From Candidatus Promineifilum breve (GTDB taxonomy: Bacteria; Chloroflexota; Anaerolineae; Promineifilales; Promineifilaceae): a stretch of DNA of 64,000 nucleotides. The first letter of the stretch is position 1, and each line of letters starts with the position of its first letter. This document shows positions 45,108 to 56,542 of the stretch, one piece after another. Made by a program: the position numbers and the translations under genes. The stretch is taken from NCBI RefSeq assembly GCF_900066015.1, contig NZ_LN890655.1, positions 1,404,726 through 1,468,725 on the forward strand, given 5' to 3'. Below the pieces are notes generated by a model. It had not been told where the DNA came from. It made no database searches and saw nothing but the letters and a program-made list of their open reading frames with translations.

Positions 45108-45138
45108 AGACCTGACAGGCAACTGTCAGGTCTTTTTA
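45108..45138 (+). terminator. Intrinsic terminator after tRNA-Lys
   Basis: AGACCTGACAG (45108-45118), loop GCAA, CTGTCAGGTCT (45123-45133), then TTTTATT. The 3' arm overlaps the end of the convergent cyclase gene. Confidence 0.9.
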
Positions 45139-48100
45139 TTCTCCAGCAGCGCGGCCTCATCGTGCCGCCCCTGTTCCCGCAGCACCCTCACCAGCAGGCG
45201 ATAGGCGTGGGGTAGCTCGCGCCAGCGGCCGAGCAGCCGCGCGTCTTCGGCGGTGGCGATCACCTGGCGCAGCGTGGCCTCGGCCGCCGGGTAGTGCTCC
45301 TGGGCCAGCAGCGCCTCGCCCATCGCCAGCCGGCAGCGCAGGCGCAAATAGCGGCTGCCGGTGGCCTCGGCCAGCGCCGCGGCCTCTTCCAGGTAGTCGC
45401 CGGCGGCGGCATTTTCCCCCAGACGACAGGCGGCCAGCCCCAGCCGGCGCAGCGTCTCGGCCGCGGCCTGTTGGTCGCCCTCGGCCCGTTGCCCGGCCAG
45501 CGCCTGCTGGAGTAACGCGCGGGCCTCGGCGGCGTGGCCCAGTTCCAGCGCCAACCAACCCCGGTGGGCCAGCACGTAGGCGGCATCGGCCGGGCGATGG
45601 CGCTCGGCCGGCGTATCGCTCAACGCCGCCAGTTCGGCCAAAGCCGCCCGCCCTTCTTCATCGTCATCGCCGGCCGGGGCATGAAGCGCCAGCAGCGCCA
45701 GACCGTAGGCCGTCTCGCGCGGCGCGTCCAGCGCCCGGCCGCGCTCCACGGCGGCGTGGGCGGCGCGGACGGCGGCGCGGGCATCCCCCCGCAGACCGGC
45801 CGCCTCGCTCTGCAAGAGCAGCGCCCGCACCACTTCCAGTTCGGCCCCGCCCAGGCGGGCCAACTCCTCGGCGCGGACCGCCACCGCCGCCGCCTGGATG
45901 CCGTCGTCCAGTTCCAACAGCACGGCCGCCTGAGCGTTTTCGGCGCGCGCCTGGGCCAACAGGTTACCATCACGTTGCGCGCTGTCGTGCATGGCCCGAT
46001 AGGTGTCCAGCGCCTCGACCAGCCGCCCTTCCTGCCACAGGGCGCGCCCCAGCCGGTTCAGCACCGCCAGGCGGGTATCGAGGTGTTGCGGTTGATCCTT
46101 CAGCAACTCCAGCACCTTGCGGTAATAGCCGATGGCCGGGCCGATCTTGAATTGTTCGGCGGCGCGGCCGGCGGCGATCTCGTAGTGGTGGGCGGCGTCG
46201 GCGGCGCGACCGGCGGCCTCGTAATGCTGGGCGATGGGCGCGGCGTATTCGGCCGCCCGGTCGGCGCTCTGGGTTTCCAGCCAGCGCGCCGCCTGCAAGT
46301 GGTAGATCAGCCGGTCGCGCAACAGGACGCTCTCGTAGGCCACCTCGCGCAAGACGGCGTGTTTGAACAGGTACGCCGGGCCGCCGGGCAGCGCGGTCGC
46401 CGACGCGCGATAGATCATATCGCGCCGCGCCAGTGCCTCGAGGGCGGCGGCCACCTGCGCCTCGGCCAGCGGGAAACGGGCTACGGCGTTCATCTGTTGC
46501 ACCGCCTCGGCCCAGAAATCATCGCCGATGACCGCCGCCTGCTGCAACGTGACGCGTTCGATTTCGGGCAGCCGGTCGAGCCGGGCCTGGAGCACGCCGG
46601 TCAGCGTGGCCGGCACGCGCAGGCGGGTCAGTTCGCGCGGCCGCACGTGCCACGCCTCGTCGGTGGGAATGATGACCCCGTCCTCGATGAGCACCCGCAC
46701 CAGTTCCTCGACGTAGAACGGGTTGCCCGCCGCCGATTGAACGATCAGGTCCGACAGGGCCGGCGGTATCTGCGGCAGCTTGCGCAGGATGGTGAGCACC
46801 AATTCGCGGCTGTCGGCCTCGCTCAGCGGCGACAGCGGCAGGGTCTCGGCCGCGCCGGCCGCCGCCCCCGGCCAGGCGCGGCGCTCGAACAGCATCGGCC
46901 GCGTCAGACAGATGATCAACAAGGGGGCCTCTGCCGTCAGCGCCGCCAGCCGTTGCAACAGATCCAACGAATCCTCATCGGCCCAATGGATGTCCTCCAC
47001 AAAGAAGACGGTCGCCGCCGAACGCCGGCTGACGGCCTGGAAATAATCCAGCAGGGTGGTGACGGCCCGCTCGCGGTGGGTGCTGTCCTCCGGCCCGGCC
47101 CAGTCGCGCAGCGGTGCGGCGGGCAGGCTCAGGCCGGTCAGTCGGCCGATCGCCAGCGCCCGGTCGCGCAAGCCGGCGCTACGGGTGACGCGCCGCGAGG
47201 GCGGCAGATTCGCGGCCAGACCGGCGACGATACGCTCCTGAATCGTTGCCGCGCGGTCGTTCTCGGCGATGCCGAAATGGCGGATGAGCATATCGCGCAC
47301 CAGACCATAGGGCACCTGGGTCAACCGCTGCTCGGCCCGCCCCTGAAACAGCGTCGGCTTCAGCGGAAACTCGTCGAGGCGGCGGTGGAATTCGCGCAAC
47401 AGGCGCGATTTGCCCACGCCCGCGTCGCCCACGATGGTGATCAGCCGGCCGCGCCCCGTCTGCGCCGTCTCTTCCAGCGCGGCCCGCAGTGCGGCCATCT
47501 CCGGCTGGCGGCCGATCATCGGCACGACGACGCCCTCGACCCCCTCGCTGCCGGTGAAGAACAGGCGCGGCTGGGGGCCGACGACGCGATAGACAATGAC
47601 CGGCGTCTGCCGCCCCTTCACCACCACTTCGCCAAGCGGGGCAACGAGGAAGGAGTGGCGCACCAGCCGGTAGGTATCCTGCGAGATGTAGATGCCCGCC
47701 TCGCCCGTGGCGTCCTTCAGCCGGCTGGCGACGTTGACCGCGTCGCCGATGACCGTCTGGTCGGCGTCGGAACCCACGCGCCCCAGCGAGACCTGGCCGG
47801 TGTTGATGCCCACCCGGATGATCGGCCGCCCCGCCCGGTCGCCGTCACCGAACCGCTCCGGGTCGAGCTCCACCAGTTCGTCAATCGCCTCGCGCAGGGC
47901 CAGCCCGCATTGCACCGCCCGCTCGGGATCGTTCTCGCGGGCCAGCGGCGCGCCGAAGATGCCCATGACGACATCGCCCATGTGTTTATCGACGATGCCG
48001 CCGTGGCTATAGATGATCTCGTCCAGACGCCGCCAAAGCAGATCGATCTGGCGCAATTTTTCCGTGTTGGGGGCCGTGCTCAGCCGGGTCAGGCCGTCGA

Positions 48101-48299
48101 TGGCGGCGAAGAGGATGGTCACCTGCTTGCGCTGCTCGCTCGGCTCGGCCGCCGCCGGGGGCGCGCCGAGCGGCAGGGGGGCCGTGCGCGCTCTCTCGCG
48201 CAAGACGGCCAGTGTCGTCGCCACGACCGTCTCGCCCAAACGGGCGCGTTCGGCCGATAGGACGGCGATCGCTTCCTGGAGTTGCGTGCGGTCGAGCAT
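45126..48299 (-). CDS. Class III cyclase homology domain - AAA ATPase - TPR protein (metal Asp lost)
   Basis: 1057 residues. Class III nucleotidyl cyclase domain (about 58-215). AAA/STAND ATPase (about 250-600; Walker A VGDAGVGKSRLLREF, Walker B-like TVFFVEDIHWADED). TPR-like helical repeats follow to the end. In the cyclase domain the usual FADIxGFT is FAAIDGLT, so the first metal-binding Asp is Ala66. The second metal Asp (D109, KHMGDVVMGIFG) is present. The half-site residues are present: Lys105 (purine), Thr182 (purine, class IIIb type), Asn189 and Arg193 (transition state; IGDAVNVASRL). As a homodimer it should be impaired. The upstream gene has the opposite set, so a heterodimer is proposed. 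The gap between the two genes is 9 bp. Confidence 0.9.
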   Translation of the reverse strand: MLDRTQLQEAIAVLSAERARLGETVVATTLAVLRERARTAPLPLGAPPAAAEPSEQRKQVTILFAAIDGLTRLSTAPNTEKLRQIDLLWRRLDEIIYSHGGIVDKHMGDVVMGIFGAPLARENDPERAVQCGLALREAIDELVELDPERFGDGDRAGRPIIRVGINTGQVSLGRVGSDADQTVIGDAVNVASRLKDATGEAGIYISQDTYRLVRHSFLVAPLGEVVVKGRQTPVIVYRVVGPQPRLFFTGSEGVEGVVVPMIGRQPEMAALRAALEETAQTGRGRLITIVGDAGVGKSRLLREFHRRLDEFPLKPTLFQGRAEQRLTQVPYGLVRDMLIRHFGIAENDRAATIQERIVAGLAANLPPSRRVTRSAGLRDRALAIGRLTGLSLPAAPLRDWAGPEDSTHRERAVTTLLDYFQAVSRRSAATVFFVEDIHWADEDSLDLLQRLAALTAEAPLLIICLTRPMLFERRAWPGAAAGAAETLPLSPLSEADSRELVLTILRKLPQIPPALSDLIVQSAAGNPFYVEELVRVLIEDGVIIPTDEAWHVRPRELTRLRVPATLTGVLQARLDRLPEIERVTLQQAAVIGDDFWAEAVQQMNAVARFPLAEAQVAAALEALARRDMIYRASATALPGGPAYLFKHAVLREVAYESVLLRDRLIYHLQAARWLETQSADRAAEYAAPIAQHYEAAGRAADAAHHYEIAAGRAAEQFKIGPAIGYYRKVLELLKDQPQHLDTRLAVLNRLGRALWQEGRLVEALDTYRAMHDSAQRDGNLLAQARAENAQAAVLLELDDGIQAAAVAVRAEELARLGGAELEVVRALLLQSEAAGLRGDARAAVRAAHAAVERGRALDAPRETAYGLALLALHAPAGDDDEEGRAALAELAALSDTPAERHRPADAAYVLAHRGWLALELGHAAEARALLQQALAGQRAEGDQQAAAETLRRLGLAACRLGENAAAGDYLEEAAALAEATGSRYLRLRCRLAMGEALLAQEHYPAAEATLRQVIATAEDARLLGRWRELPHAYRLLVRVLREQGRHDEAALLENKKT

Positions 48300-48308
48300 G
48301 ATCGGCCC

Positions 48309-50519
48309 CTAGACGACCACTGCCGGCGCGTCGCTGTGGCCGCGGCCGGCGGCGGCCTGGGCCTGGTCGCCGGCGGCGGCGAAATGGCCGGCGATCATGG
48401 CGTCGATGGAGATCCAGGCACTGAAGCGCGCGCTGTGGCGGTTGGCAATGAGCCAGCGCGCCGCGCCGAGATGCAAGGCGCGACGCTGACCGGCCGTCAA
48501 CCCGGCATAGGCCACCTCGCGCACCGAATCGCGCCGGAATGCGTAAGCCTGCGACGCCGGAAAGTTGTAGACGTCATCGGCGGCCAGATATTCCTTCGCT
48601 TCCAGACTGAGCAAGGCCGCTTCCAGTTGCGCGGCGTCCAGGCCGATGGCCGGCTCCATCTCCAACAAGGCGATGTCCCAACACAGCGGCCGAAAGACCG
48701 ACGCCGCCTGCAACACCCGGCGCTCCGCTTCCGGCAATTCGGCCAGGCGGGCGGCGATGAGCGCGGCCAGCCCGGCCGGCAGATGGCTCTCCTCGACGCG
48801 GGCCATATCGATCCGCCAGCGGTCGCCAACGGTGATGACGCCCCGGTCGATGAGCCACTGGATGAACGTTTCGATGTAGAGCGGGTTGCCGCCCGACTCG
48901 ACCACCACCAGGTCGAGCAGTCGCATCGACGGCGCGCCCAGCGGCTGCAAGATTTCCGTCGCCATGAGCCGGCTATCGACGGCCGACAGAGGCTCCAGGT
49001 CCAGCCGCTCCATCGGCGCGAACATATCTAACTCCTTGCCCAACCAGGGCAGCGTGATTTCGGGGTCGGTCGCCGGGGCCACCGTCGCCAGGCCCAGGAT
49101 GAGCAGCGGCCCGGCCTCGCCCGCCTCCACCAGGCGCTCCACCAAGGCCAAAGACTGCGCGTCGGCGCGGTTTAGCCCCTCCAATATGGCGATGGCCGGG
49201 CCGGCGGCGGTGGTCGCCTGGAGCAGCGGGGTGAAGACGGCCAGCGCCTCCTCCACCGGGACGGCGGCGGCCGTTTTCACGTCGAGCAGCTTTTCCAGCA
49301 AGTCGATCGCCCGTGCCGATAGGTCGAGGTCACGGCCGGGCCGGCCATCGCCTCCGGCCGTTTCGGGGTCGGCCAGGCCGTGGCGCAATTTCCAGGCGAT
49401 GAGGTTGGCGCTGTGTTGCGGGCGAATGGCGAAGCGCCGCAATAGCAAATCGCGCACCAGGGCGTAGGGGAAATCGCGGGCCGAACCCAGCGTGCCGGCG
49501 CGCAGCACGGTCGAAACGCCCACCATGCGGGCGCGGTTCTCGAATTCGTAGGCCAGGCGGGATTTGCCGGCCCCCGGCGGGCCGATGATGGTCACCAGTT
49601 GCGGGGTGCGGCTGTCGGCCGCCGTTTGCAGTGCCCCTTCCAGCCGGCTGATCAGACCGGTGCGGCCCACGCGCCGCGTCATCTGCCCGGCCACCGTGCC
49701 CGGCGTGTAGCCCGTGGCCGGCGGCCGTTCGCCCGCCACCAGCCAGCCGTTGTCCACCCCCGACGGCAAGGTCGCCGTGTCGGGCAACGACGCATAGACG
49801 AAGGGCGTGGCCGCCATCTCGCGCACGACCTCCGACGTCAGGACGCTGCCGGCGGGCGCGGCCTTCTCCAGCCGGCGGGCCACGGCGATGGCGTCGCCCA
49901 CGGCCGCCGGTCGGCCGCCCTGCGGCGCGGCGGCCCCCGGCGGGCGGGCAAAGTAGACCGGGCCGCTATGGATGCCGATGCGCATCCGCGGCCCCGGCCA
50001 GTCGGCGGCCCAGGCCCCCTCGCGCGAATCATCGGCCGCGCCTCGCACCCGCTCGTTGAACAGGGCCAACTCCTGCTGCATCGCCAGCGCGGCATGGAGC
50101 GCGCGCGCCGCGTCCCCCTGTCGCGGATGGACGAGGCCGAACAGGGCCATGAGGCTGTCGCCGGCGTGTTGGTCGATCTCCCCGCCCCAGGCGCGGATCA
50201 CGGCGTCCAGTTCGCGCCACATGGCATTGATGGCGTCGCGCAGGCGCTCGGCGTCCATCCGCTCCGAGAACGTGGTGAAGCCGGAGAGATCGGCCACCAG
50301 CACGGTCAATTGCCGCCGCTTGTGGTCGCCCGGCTCGGCCGCCGTCTGGGCCAACGCCTCGCGGAGGGCGCGCAAGGCGATATCGATGGCCCTGTTCAGG
50401 TTACGTTCGTTGCCGGTGGCCGCCCGCTGCGCTTCCATCGCGGCGATGGCCTCGACCAGCGCCGGGCGGCTAATGTTTGCCTCGTCCACACGGTTTATTA
50501 TATAAATAGCCCGGCCCAC
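48309..50519 (-). CDS. Class III cyclase homology domain - AAA ATPase protein (purine and transition-state residues lost)
   Basis: 736 residues counted from a GTG at 50519. A better start may be the GTG at 50489, because a TATAAT box lies between them. Cyclase domain (about 68-235) with both metal Asp residues: D77 (VADLSGFT) and D121 (HAGDSLMALFG). The partner-site residues are gone: Gln117 for the purine Lys, Ala205 for the purine Thr/Asp, Ala212 for the catalytic Asn; only Arg216 remains (VGDAIAVARRL). ATPase domain has Walker A IGPPGAGKSRLAYEF. There is no long TPR array. It is first in a two-gene operon with the complementary cyclase protein, and divergent from smc. Confidence 0.88.
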   Translation of the reverse strand: MGRAIYIINRVDEANISRPALVEAIAAMEAQRAATGNERNLNRAIDIALRALREALAQTAAEPGDHKRRQLTVLVADLSGFTTFSERMDAERLRDAINAMWRELDAVIRAWGGEIDQHAGDSLMALFGLVHPRQGDAARALHAALAMQQELALFNERVRGAADDSREGAWAADWPGPRMRIGIHSGPVYFARPPGAAAPQGGRPAAVGDAIAVARRLEKAAPAGSVLTSEVVREMAATPFVYASLPDTATLPSGVDNGWLVAGERPPATGYTPGTVAGQMTRRVGRTGLISRLEGALQTAADSRTPQLVTIIGPPGAGKSRLAYEFENRARMVGVSTVLRAGTLGSARDFPYALVRDLLLRRFAIRPQHSANLIAWKLRHGLADPETAGGDGRPGRDLDLSARAIDLLEKLLDVKTAAAVPVEEALAVFTPLLQATTAAGPAIAILEGLNRADAQSLALVERLVEAGEAGPLLILGLATVAPATDPEITLPWLGKELDMFAPMERLDLEPLSAVDSRLMATEILQPLGAPSMRLLDLVVVESGGNPLYIETFIQWLIDRGVITVGDRWRIDMARVEESHLPAGLAALIAARLAELPEAERRVLQAASVFRPLCWDIALLEMEPAIGLDAAQLEAALLSLEAKEYLAADDVYNFPASQAYAFRRDSVREVAYAGLTAGQRRALHLGAARWLIANRHSARFSAWISIDAMIAGHFAAAGDQAQAAAGRGHSDAPAVVV

Positions 50520-55205: not shown

Positions 55206-56006
55206 ATGAATGATCCTTTGATGCCCTTCCTCTGGGCGGCCGTCAGTCTGATCATCCTGCTGTTCATGCAGCGCTGGATCCACGCCCACCTGCATGGCGT
55301 CAGCCTGTTGCTGGTCGGCCGCCCGGAGGCAGCCATCATCGTCTATGCCGTCGTCCTGTTTCCCGGCGTATTGCTCCACGAGGTCAGCCATTGGCTGACG
55401 GCCAACCTGCTGGGCGTGCGCACCGGCGGCATGTCGCTGTTGCCGCGCCGCAACCCCGACGGCACGCTGCAACTGGGCTACGTGGAGTATTATAAAACCC
55501 GCGCCTTCGACCCCATCCGCGAGAGCCTGATCGGCGCGGCCCCGCTGCTGGCCGGCACGGCGGTCATCCTGCTCATCGCTCGCCACGTCTTCGGCGTCAC
55601 CGATCTGGCTGCGGCCATCGTCAGCGCCGACGTCAACGTGCTGGCCGACGCCGTGACGCAACTGCTGGCGACGCCCAACGTCCTGGTGTGGATCTACTTA
55701 ATCTTCGCCGTCAGCAACGCCATGCTGCCCAGCCGGTCGGATCGCCACGCCTGGCCGGCGTTCTTCGTCATCATGTTCATCTTCACCCTGGCCGTGGCCT
55801 TTCTGGCGCGGGGCACGACCCTGTTCGATAACCTGGCCCGGCCGGTGGCCGTCCTTTTCGGCTATCTGGGCACGGCATTTTCCATCGCCATCGCCATCGA
55901 CCTGATCTGTATGGGCGTCATCGCTCCGCTGGAGTGGCTACTGGGCCGGTTGCGCGGCGCGAGTGTGGTCTATGGCCGCCCGCCCGGCGAAGAGACGGCC
56001 GCCTGA
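55206..56006 (+). CDS. Putative M50-like (site-2 protease-like) membrane metalloprotease
   Basis: 266 residues with about six hydrophobic segments. The second ends in GVLLHEVSHWLTANLLG, where H58-E-V-S-H62 is a zinc-binding HExxH inside a membrane segment. A later segment has AVSNAMLPSRSDRHAW, which resembles the N-x(3)-P-x(3)-D second motif of M50 proteases. GGMSLLPRRNPDG after the HExxH is like the re-entrant loop region. The family assignment is by motif only. It lies 3 bp from tpiA and 23 bp before a cNMP-binding gene. Regulated intramembrane proteolysis is possible; no substrate is evident. Confidence 0.7.
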   Translation: MNDPLMPFLWAAVSLIILLFMQRWIHAHLHGVSLLLVGRPEAAIIVYAVVLFPGVLLHEVSHWLTANLLGVRTGGMSLLPRRNPDGTLQLGYVEYYKTRAFDPIRESLIGAAPLLAGTAVILLIARHVFGVTDLAAAIVSADVNVLADAVTQLLATPNVLVWIYLIFAVSNAMLPSRSDRHAWPAFFVIMFIFTLAVAFLARGTTLFDNLARPVAVLFGYLGTAFSIAIAIDLICMGVIAPLEWLLGRLRGASVVYGRPPGEETAA

Positions 56007-56029
56007 TCAGAGGGAGAAGGGAACACCCC

Positions 56030-56542
56030 ATGCAGCCCAGCACGCGCACCATCCTGGCGACCACCGAAATATTCGACAACTTCAACGATGCCCAGTTGAC
56101 GCTGGTGGCCGCGCTGTGTACCCCGGTGACCTACAACCAGGGGCACGTGCTGCTGACGGAGAACGACCAGTCGGACGAGATGTACATCATCGGCCGGGGC
56201 GGGGTCGAGGTGCTGGTCAATCCCGGCGCGGTAGGCGCGGCCAACGCACCGGGCGGTGTGGCCCCCGTCGTCCTGACCGAGTTGCGCCAGGGGCAGGTCG
56301 TGGGCGAAGTGGCCCTCGTCGATCAGGGGGTGCGCTCGGCCACCATTCGCGTCAGCCGGGACGAGACGTTGCTCCTGCGCCTGCGGCGCGATCAGCTCAT
56401 GCGCCTGTGCGAGACCTACCCGGTGCTGGGCTACAAACTGATGCGCAATCTGGCCTCCGAGTTGGCGACGAAGATTCGCAATACGGATTGGCTGGTGCGG
56501 CAATATCAGTTGCGATTGCAATCCGAAGCGGATAACGGGTAA
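56030..56542 (+). CDS. Single-domain cyclic nucleotide-binding protein
   Basis: 170 residues from the ATG at 56030 (GAGGGAGAAGGG upstream). One CNB/CAP_ED domain: IFDNFNDAQLTLVAALC (N-helices) and GHVLLTENDQSDEMYIIGRG. The phosphate-binding cassette GQVVGEVALVDQGVRSAT keeps Glu93 and Arg102, which bind the ribose 2'-OH and phosphate of cNMP. There is no helix-turn-helix, kinase or channel domain, so it must act through a partner. An insert (NPGAVGAANAPGGVAP) lengthens the beta4-beta5 loop. The cyclase operon is about 5.5 kb away, a possible source of ligand. Confidence 0.9.
   Translation: MQPSTRTILATTEIFDNFNDAQLTLVAALCTPVTYNQGHVLLTENDQSDEMYIIGRGGVEVLVNPGAVGAANAPGGVAPVVLTELRQGQVVGEVALVDQGVRSATIRVSRDETLLLRLRRDQLMRLCETYPVLGYKLMRNLASELATKIRNTDWLVRQYQLRLQSEADNG

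Follow-up and report, generated by a model that had tools for sequence, protein, structure and literature searches.

Two adjacent genes in Chloroflexota predicted to encode the halves of a split class III cyclase

In class III cyclases, the catalytic site is assembled from the metal-binding Asp residues of one subunit and the Lys, Thr (or Asp), Asn and Arg residues of the other, and an active site split between two class III halves is textbook knowledge in animals. In mammalian transmembrane adenylyl cyclases (tmACs), the metal Asps come from the C1 half and the Lys, Asp/Thr, Asn and Arg from C2. Soluble adenylyl cyclase (sAC, ADCY10) likewise combines an asymmetric C1-C2 pair with one active site, and its allosteric bicarbonate site is built from a Lys and an Arg of C1. 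Two-gene heterodimers are represented by soluble guanylyl cyclase and the chytrid rhodopsin-cyclases (PMC8815786); in the latter, missing catalytic residues in RGC1/2 do not explain heterodimerization of RGC1/2 with NeoR (PMC8815786). For bacteria, a 2022 review described class III adenylyl cyclases as homodimers only and stated that fused dimers were unknown. Bacterial relatives of sAC that contain a P-loop domain have already been described (Kobayashi 2004, as cited in PMC6660944 and PMC11006738), and Roelofs 2002, as cited in other papers, is a further primary paper on bacterial sAC. In the open-access literature, we found two-gene class III heterodimers from eukaryotes and no bacterial case, although one may have been described elsewhere.

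Here, we describe two neighboring cyclase genes within a 64,000-nucleotide stretch of the Candidatus Promineifilum breve genome (the window, to whose positions all coordinates refer unless a locus is named). Reading of the window confirmed both open reading frames, which, with all of the features described within them, lie on the minus strand. The upstream gene, B (48309–50519), starts with GTG and encodes 736 amino acids, with a class III cyclase domain at residues 68–247 (49779–50318; PF00211 E 1.4e-12 and column mapping) followed by an AAA_16 ATPase domain (49098–49670). This second part of B matches the STAND ATPase 6mfv in our structural model. The downstream gene, A (45126–48299), encodes 1057 amino acids and has the same domain order, a cyclase domain at residues 57–239 (47583–48131; PF00211 E 1.2e-18 and column mapping) and an AAA_16 domain (46911–47516), with additional TPRs that include a TPR_12 match near the C terminus (45246–45461). 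As the scores of A (67.8 bits) and B (48.0 bits) against PF00211 (Guanylate_cyc) exceed the curated cut-off of 21.9, both are members of the superfamily. A 9-bp spacer (48300–48308) separates the TAG stop codon of B from the ATG start codon of A, and the two genes share one reading frame across it.

We considered two known systems to which the locus might belong and rejected both. A scored 228.5 bits against the TOMM system kinase/cyclase fusion model (TIGR03903), for which the cut-off is 705.75, and there is no kinase domain; B did not match. For the Pycsar anti-phage system, there were only weak PycC matches (best 4.6e-14), and the flanking genes are smc and one for a PGA_cap protein, with no effector gene.

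We used a common profile to map six catalytic positions (first Asp, Lys, second Asp, Thr, Asn and Arg, listed below in this sequence), and the catalytic columns coincide when the A and B domains are aligned with one another. At these positions, A has A66, K105, D109, T182, N189 and R193, and B has D77, Q117, D121, A205, A212 and R216. In the solved cyclase CyaB (3r5g), the first Asp, Lys/second Asp, Thr, Asn and Arg align with A66, K105/D109, T182, N189 and R193. An earlier note on this DNA had named five of these residues in A and all six in B, and every one was correct, those of A by both the profile and the CyaB register and those of B by the profile; D109, the second metal Asp of A, is retained in the window and was missing from that note. 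Neither chain contains the full set, since A lacks the first Asp and B lacks Lys, Thr and Asn, and thus neither qualifies as a cyclase of the homodimeric type.

To follow these residues across the order, profiles of B and A were searched against 56 of its genomes, preceded by 59 relatives, and the loci were then read. In A-type proteins, the purine-binding Lys105 (47985–47987) and Thr182 (47754–47756), which form a class IIIb-type Lys/Thr pair, the catalytic Asn189 (47733–47735) and the transition-state Arg193 (47721–47723) are each present in 30 of 30. The position of the first metal Asp, occupied by Ala66 in the window (48102–48104), is never Asp in these 30 proteins, with six different replacements: N (12), K (7), A (5), R (3), T (2) and H (1). 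The second Asp is kept in 24 and is E, N, S or T in the other 6. For B-type proteins the pattern is reversed, as both metal ligands, Asp77 (50289–50291) and Asp121 (50157–50159), are kept in all 28, and the catalytic Asn, replaced by Ala212 in the window (49884–49886), is found in none. The Lys position of B is K or Q, with Q common to the window's genus and some other genera; the Thr-to-Ala change occurs in only two B proteins, T205A of the window and that of genome G033; and the Arg is kept in only six. The universal losses are therefore the first Asp in A and the Asn alone in B. Mean pairwise identity of the cyclase domains within the A and B alignments is only 52–56%, and K105, T182, N189 and R193 in the first and D77 and D121 in the second are invariant columns. 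Both residue sets are thus conserved in orthologues, a check for which the earlier note had asked, and the random decay of retained residues that would have spoken against its proposal was not seen. One protein, L242 (DKDLVQ), resembles the first of the two cyclase domains in fused sAC-like proteins and was excluded from the B-type set, which would otherwise number 29.

How general are these losses? We compared A and B with 94 other related cyclase domains from the same order, from other Chloroflexota and from records labeled Acidobacteriota, Gemmatimonadetes, Fermentibacteraceae and others. All six residues are kept in 79 of the 94, and the losses therefore belong to the A/B pair and not to the cyclase family at large. 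The first Asp, absent from every A-type protein, is present in 93 of these relatives, and the Asn, absent from every B-type protein, in 89. We had considered chance as the cause of the complementary pattern, and the counts in A, B and the 94 relatives rule it out. By sequence, a complete residue set is left only when A and B are combined.

The two genes also come and go together. Both genes, or fragments of both, are present in 31 genomes, and no genome has only one of them, which bears out the expectation of co-occurrence; among the genomes of the order that were searched, no orthologue that shares these losses was found to stand alone. When 396 genomes of the class were searched, the matches read outside the A/B family were all solo-type relatives. 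In four genera (g1, g9, g16 and g18), both genes are missing from at least one genome that is 94% or more complete and are present in a sister genome. The genes are adjacent in 27 of the 31 genomes, where they overlap by a few bases or are separated by at most ~210 bp (start codons are uncertain), gaps that are consistent with a single operon. Two further pairs are broken by contig ends (G010 and G068). In the remaining two (G022 and G033), the genes lie apart, with B still beside smc, as it is in most loci. Genome G014 retains the smc-B-A locus (L108:3874–9061, minus strand), but the cyclase domain of B has been deleted in frame, leaving the leader followed by the ATPase. The catalytic set of its A protein is Q Q R T A Q, with all but one residue replaced, and Pfam no longer recognizes the domain. 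In G014, therefore, both halves decayed together.

Taken with the conserved complementary residues, the pairing and the joint decay support the earlier note's proposal that the two proteins share one working site, here a predicted one. We consider it likely that A and B form a split, obligately heterodimeric class III cyclase with one working site and a dead mirror site, neither protein being active alone. In the enzyme that we infer, from its dimerization and activity to its substrate and its gating by the ATPase and TPR regions, A and B would pair head to tail, as do mammalian C1 and C2. Both metal ions at the working site would be held by D77 and D121 of B, the adenine would be recognized by K105 and T182 of A, and A would also supply the catalytic N189 and the transition-state R193. 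The mirror site, where A66 and D109 of A would meet Q117, A205, A212 and R216 of B, would be dead, and neither homodimer would hold a complete site. Since the Lys/Thr purine pair of class IIIb cyclases predicts ATP as the substrate, and A has this pair in 30 of 30 proteins, the enzyme probably uses ATP.

In such an enzyme, B would take the part of C1 and A that of C2, and the metal-donor half comes first, as in the tmACs. Unlike the tmACs, the pair is encoded by two bacterial genes, has Lys/Thr rather than Lys/Asp and often retains the second Asp in A; instead of 12 membrane helices, it has STAND-like ATPase and TPR regions, and we found no membrane domain. The resemblance to sAC extends to the P-loop ATPase that follows the cyclase and to the repeat region, but sAC is a single chain, whereas A and B each contain one cyclase half and an ATPase of their own. 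Bicarbonate sensing through the dead site of B, as in sAC, is not favored, since position 117, which corresponds to the C1 Lys of the sAC bicarbonate site, is Gln in B of the window's genus and the Arg is lost in most B proteins. The predicted use of two genes for one obligate heterodimer is shared with soluble guanylyl cyclase alpha/beta and chytrid RGC/NeoR, which differ in being eukaryotic, GTP-specific and coupled to other sensors. The homodimeric bacterial class IIIb enzymes CyaB, the closest solved sequence to A, and CyaC (1wc0) are of the same domain family, and solo cyclase-AAA-TPR proteins share the cyclase-AAA architecture. These proteins retain the full set of six and would be expected to act as two-site homodimers, whereas the set is incomplete in A and in B.

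The shared reading frame allowed us to fold B and A as one linked chain, the B-TAG-A read-through (residues 60–736 of B and 1–250 of A), using an alignment with 36 further rows from which A row L089, misaligned onto B, had been removed. The model has a mean pLDDT of 84.8 and a pTM of 0.80. Its two cyclase domains superpose jointly on C1-C2 of AC9 (Z 37.2, 3.1 Å, 356 residues, model residues 3–922), and it also superposes on C1-C2 of AC5 and AC8 and on human sAC (Z 30.7, 392 residues). Within AC5 and sAC, the best profile matches are of B to C1 and of A to C2. The model thus agrees with the heterodimer that had been proposed, in that the A-B pair can adopt a C1/C2-type dimer. Since B and A were joined during folding and the training data of AlphaFold2 include tmAC and sAC structures, this speaks for compatibility and not for a preference over A:A or B:B.

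The model also superposes on 6yii (Z 29.1, 367 residues), a P. aeruginosa protein that has two class III-like domains in a single chain and is cyclase-like and ATP-binding according to its title. Together with the incompleteness of each domain on its own, this match suggests another reading, in which A and B are non-catalytic, nucleotide-binding pseudocyclases that form a signaling or scaffold module for the ATPase and TPR parts. However, a dead site would not be expected to hold exactly one complete complementary set constant across 30 A and 28 B proteins while the other positions of the two sets drift, and in G014, where the set is broken, the remaining residues have decayed. We therefore regard such a module as improbable. 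It is also conceivable, if at least as improbable, that A and B each pair with intact solo cyclases (DKDTNR type) and tune them, since the domains are homologous and the same genomes also encode six-residue solo relatives. The strict joint presence and absence, the operon-like adjacency and the joint decay instead mark A and B as partners of each other, and for pairing with an intact cyclase a complementary set would be unnecessary. On adjacency, G022 and G033 provide a counterpoint that weighs against an A/B heterodimer, since their genes are not adjacent. It is very improbable that A is itself the enzyme, a homodimer that binds one metal through D109, with B as a regulatory pseudocyclase. 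A has five of the six residues in the window's genome, D109 included, but 6 of 30 A proteins have another residue in place of the second Asp while both Asps of B are invariant, and the class III enzymes that have been studied are strongly inactivated when the first Asp is lost. As the second Asp is kept in the other 24, a weak one-metal activity of A is conceivable, a point against the obligate heterodimer.

The window's genome also encodes fused proteins of the sAC type. Two genes, L278:1609–5676 and L279:1729–5688 (both minus strand), specify two cyclase domains, an ATPase and TPRs in one chain, the C1-C2-ATPase-repeat order of sAC, from which A and B depart in being two genes with one cyclase domain each. 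With relatives L280–L299, they form a set in which we counted residues on 20 proteins. Both Asps are present in the first domain and the Asn and Arg in the second domain of all 20, and the second domain has lost its first Asp in 18. Along the entire tandem, the profile of this set aligns with human sAC (E 1e-64), a much stronger match than to any bacterial cyclase of solved structure, and a model of the fused protein superposes on sAC with Z 36.5. Since the residues are divided as in A and B, fused and split asymmetric cyclases coexist in the same genomes, and in both the half that donates the metal Asps comes first. As predicted from their sequences, the L278–L299 tandems contradict the statement on fused bacterial dimers in the 2022 review.

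When did A and B arise? We built a tree on the ATPase region alone, a part of the proteins without any of the catalytic residues. B proteins form one group (SH-aLRT 90), as do 25 of the 26 A proteins (SH-aLRT 100). In a quick tree, the A protein of G033 fell among solo cyclases, which would have implied an independent loss. We dropped this possibility, as the AU run favored a single A clade: holding all 26 A proteins together improved the lnL by 13.6 (AU p 0.75). With one A group and one B group, each gene has a single origin, followed by long joint retention, and the 31 genomes are therefore not independent.

Outside the A and B clades, four Anaerolineae/Anaerolineales-type genomes contain tandem cyclase-AAA pairs (L192:2815–9111, L207:2841–9138, L217:2777–9120 and L229:2791–9117, all plus strand) in which the downstream gene has all six residues and the upstream gene lacks only the second Asp, replaced by H, A or S. 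These pairs possibly represent an early, half-way stage of the same division of labor. Two other arrangements were noted: at L240:2484–7952 (plus strand), a cyclase pair with losses has DKNTNR adjoining DKDTNR, and at L221:5950–13485, DKDTNH faces DKDTTL on the opposite strand.

If the A/B pair is what we propose, a conserved two-gene heterodimer, together with the fused sAC-like tandems, would place C1/C2-type asymmetry in bacteria too, and Chloroflexota would hold at least two separate forms of it, one split and one fused. With half-way tandem pairs still visible, these bacteria might provide a model for the evolution of the C1/C2 asymmetry of animals, and the step from a symmetric homodimer to an asymmetric enzyme would become directly testable in natural intermediates.

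Since each subunit has its own STAND-like AAA ATPase and A also has TPRs, cyclase output probably depends on both sensor halves. More tentatively, and as a guess from the architecture that may well be wrong, cAMP would be made only when both STAND-ATPase sensors are switched on and paired, so that two proteins would form an AND-type cAMP switch. A candidate reader of such a signal is available in the genome, which has 12 matches to the cNMP-binding domain PF00027. Within the window, a small protein with this cyclic-nucleotide-binding domain is encoded at 55934–56542 (plus strand), ~5.4 kb from B.

Finally, the genome (5.03 Mb in 3 contigs) has 13 cyclase-domain matches. On its contig C2, a solo-type cyclase-AAA gene (DKD / TNR) extends over two overlapping frames (L103:3881–7275, minus strand), possibly as the result of a frameshift, a pseudogene or a sequencing error.
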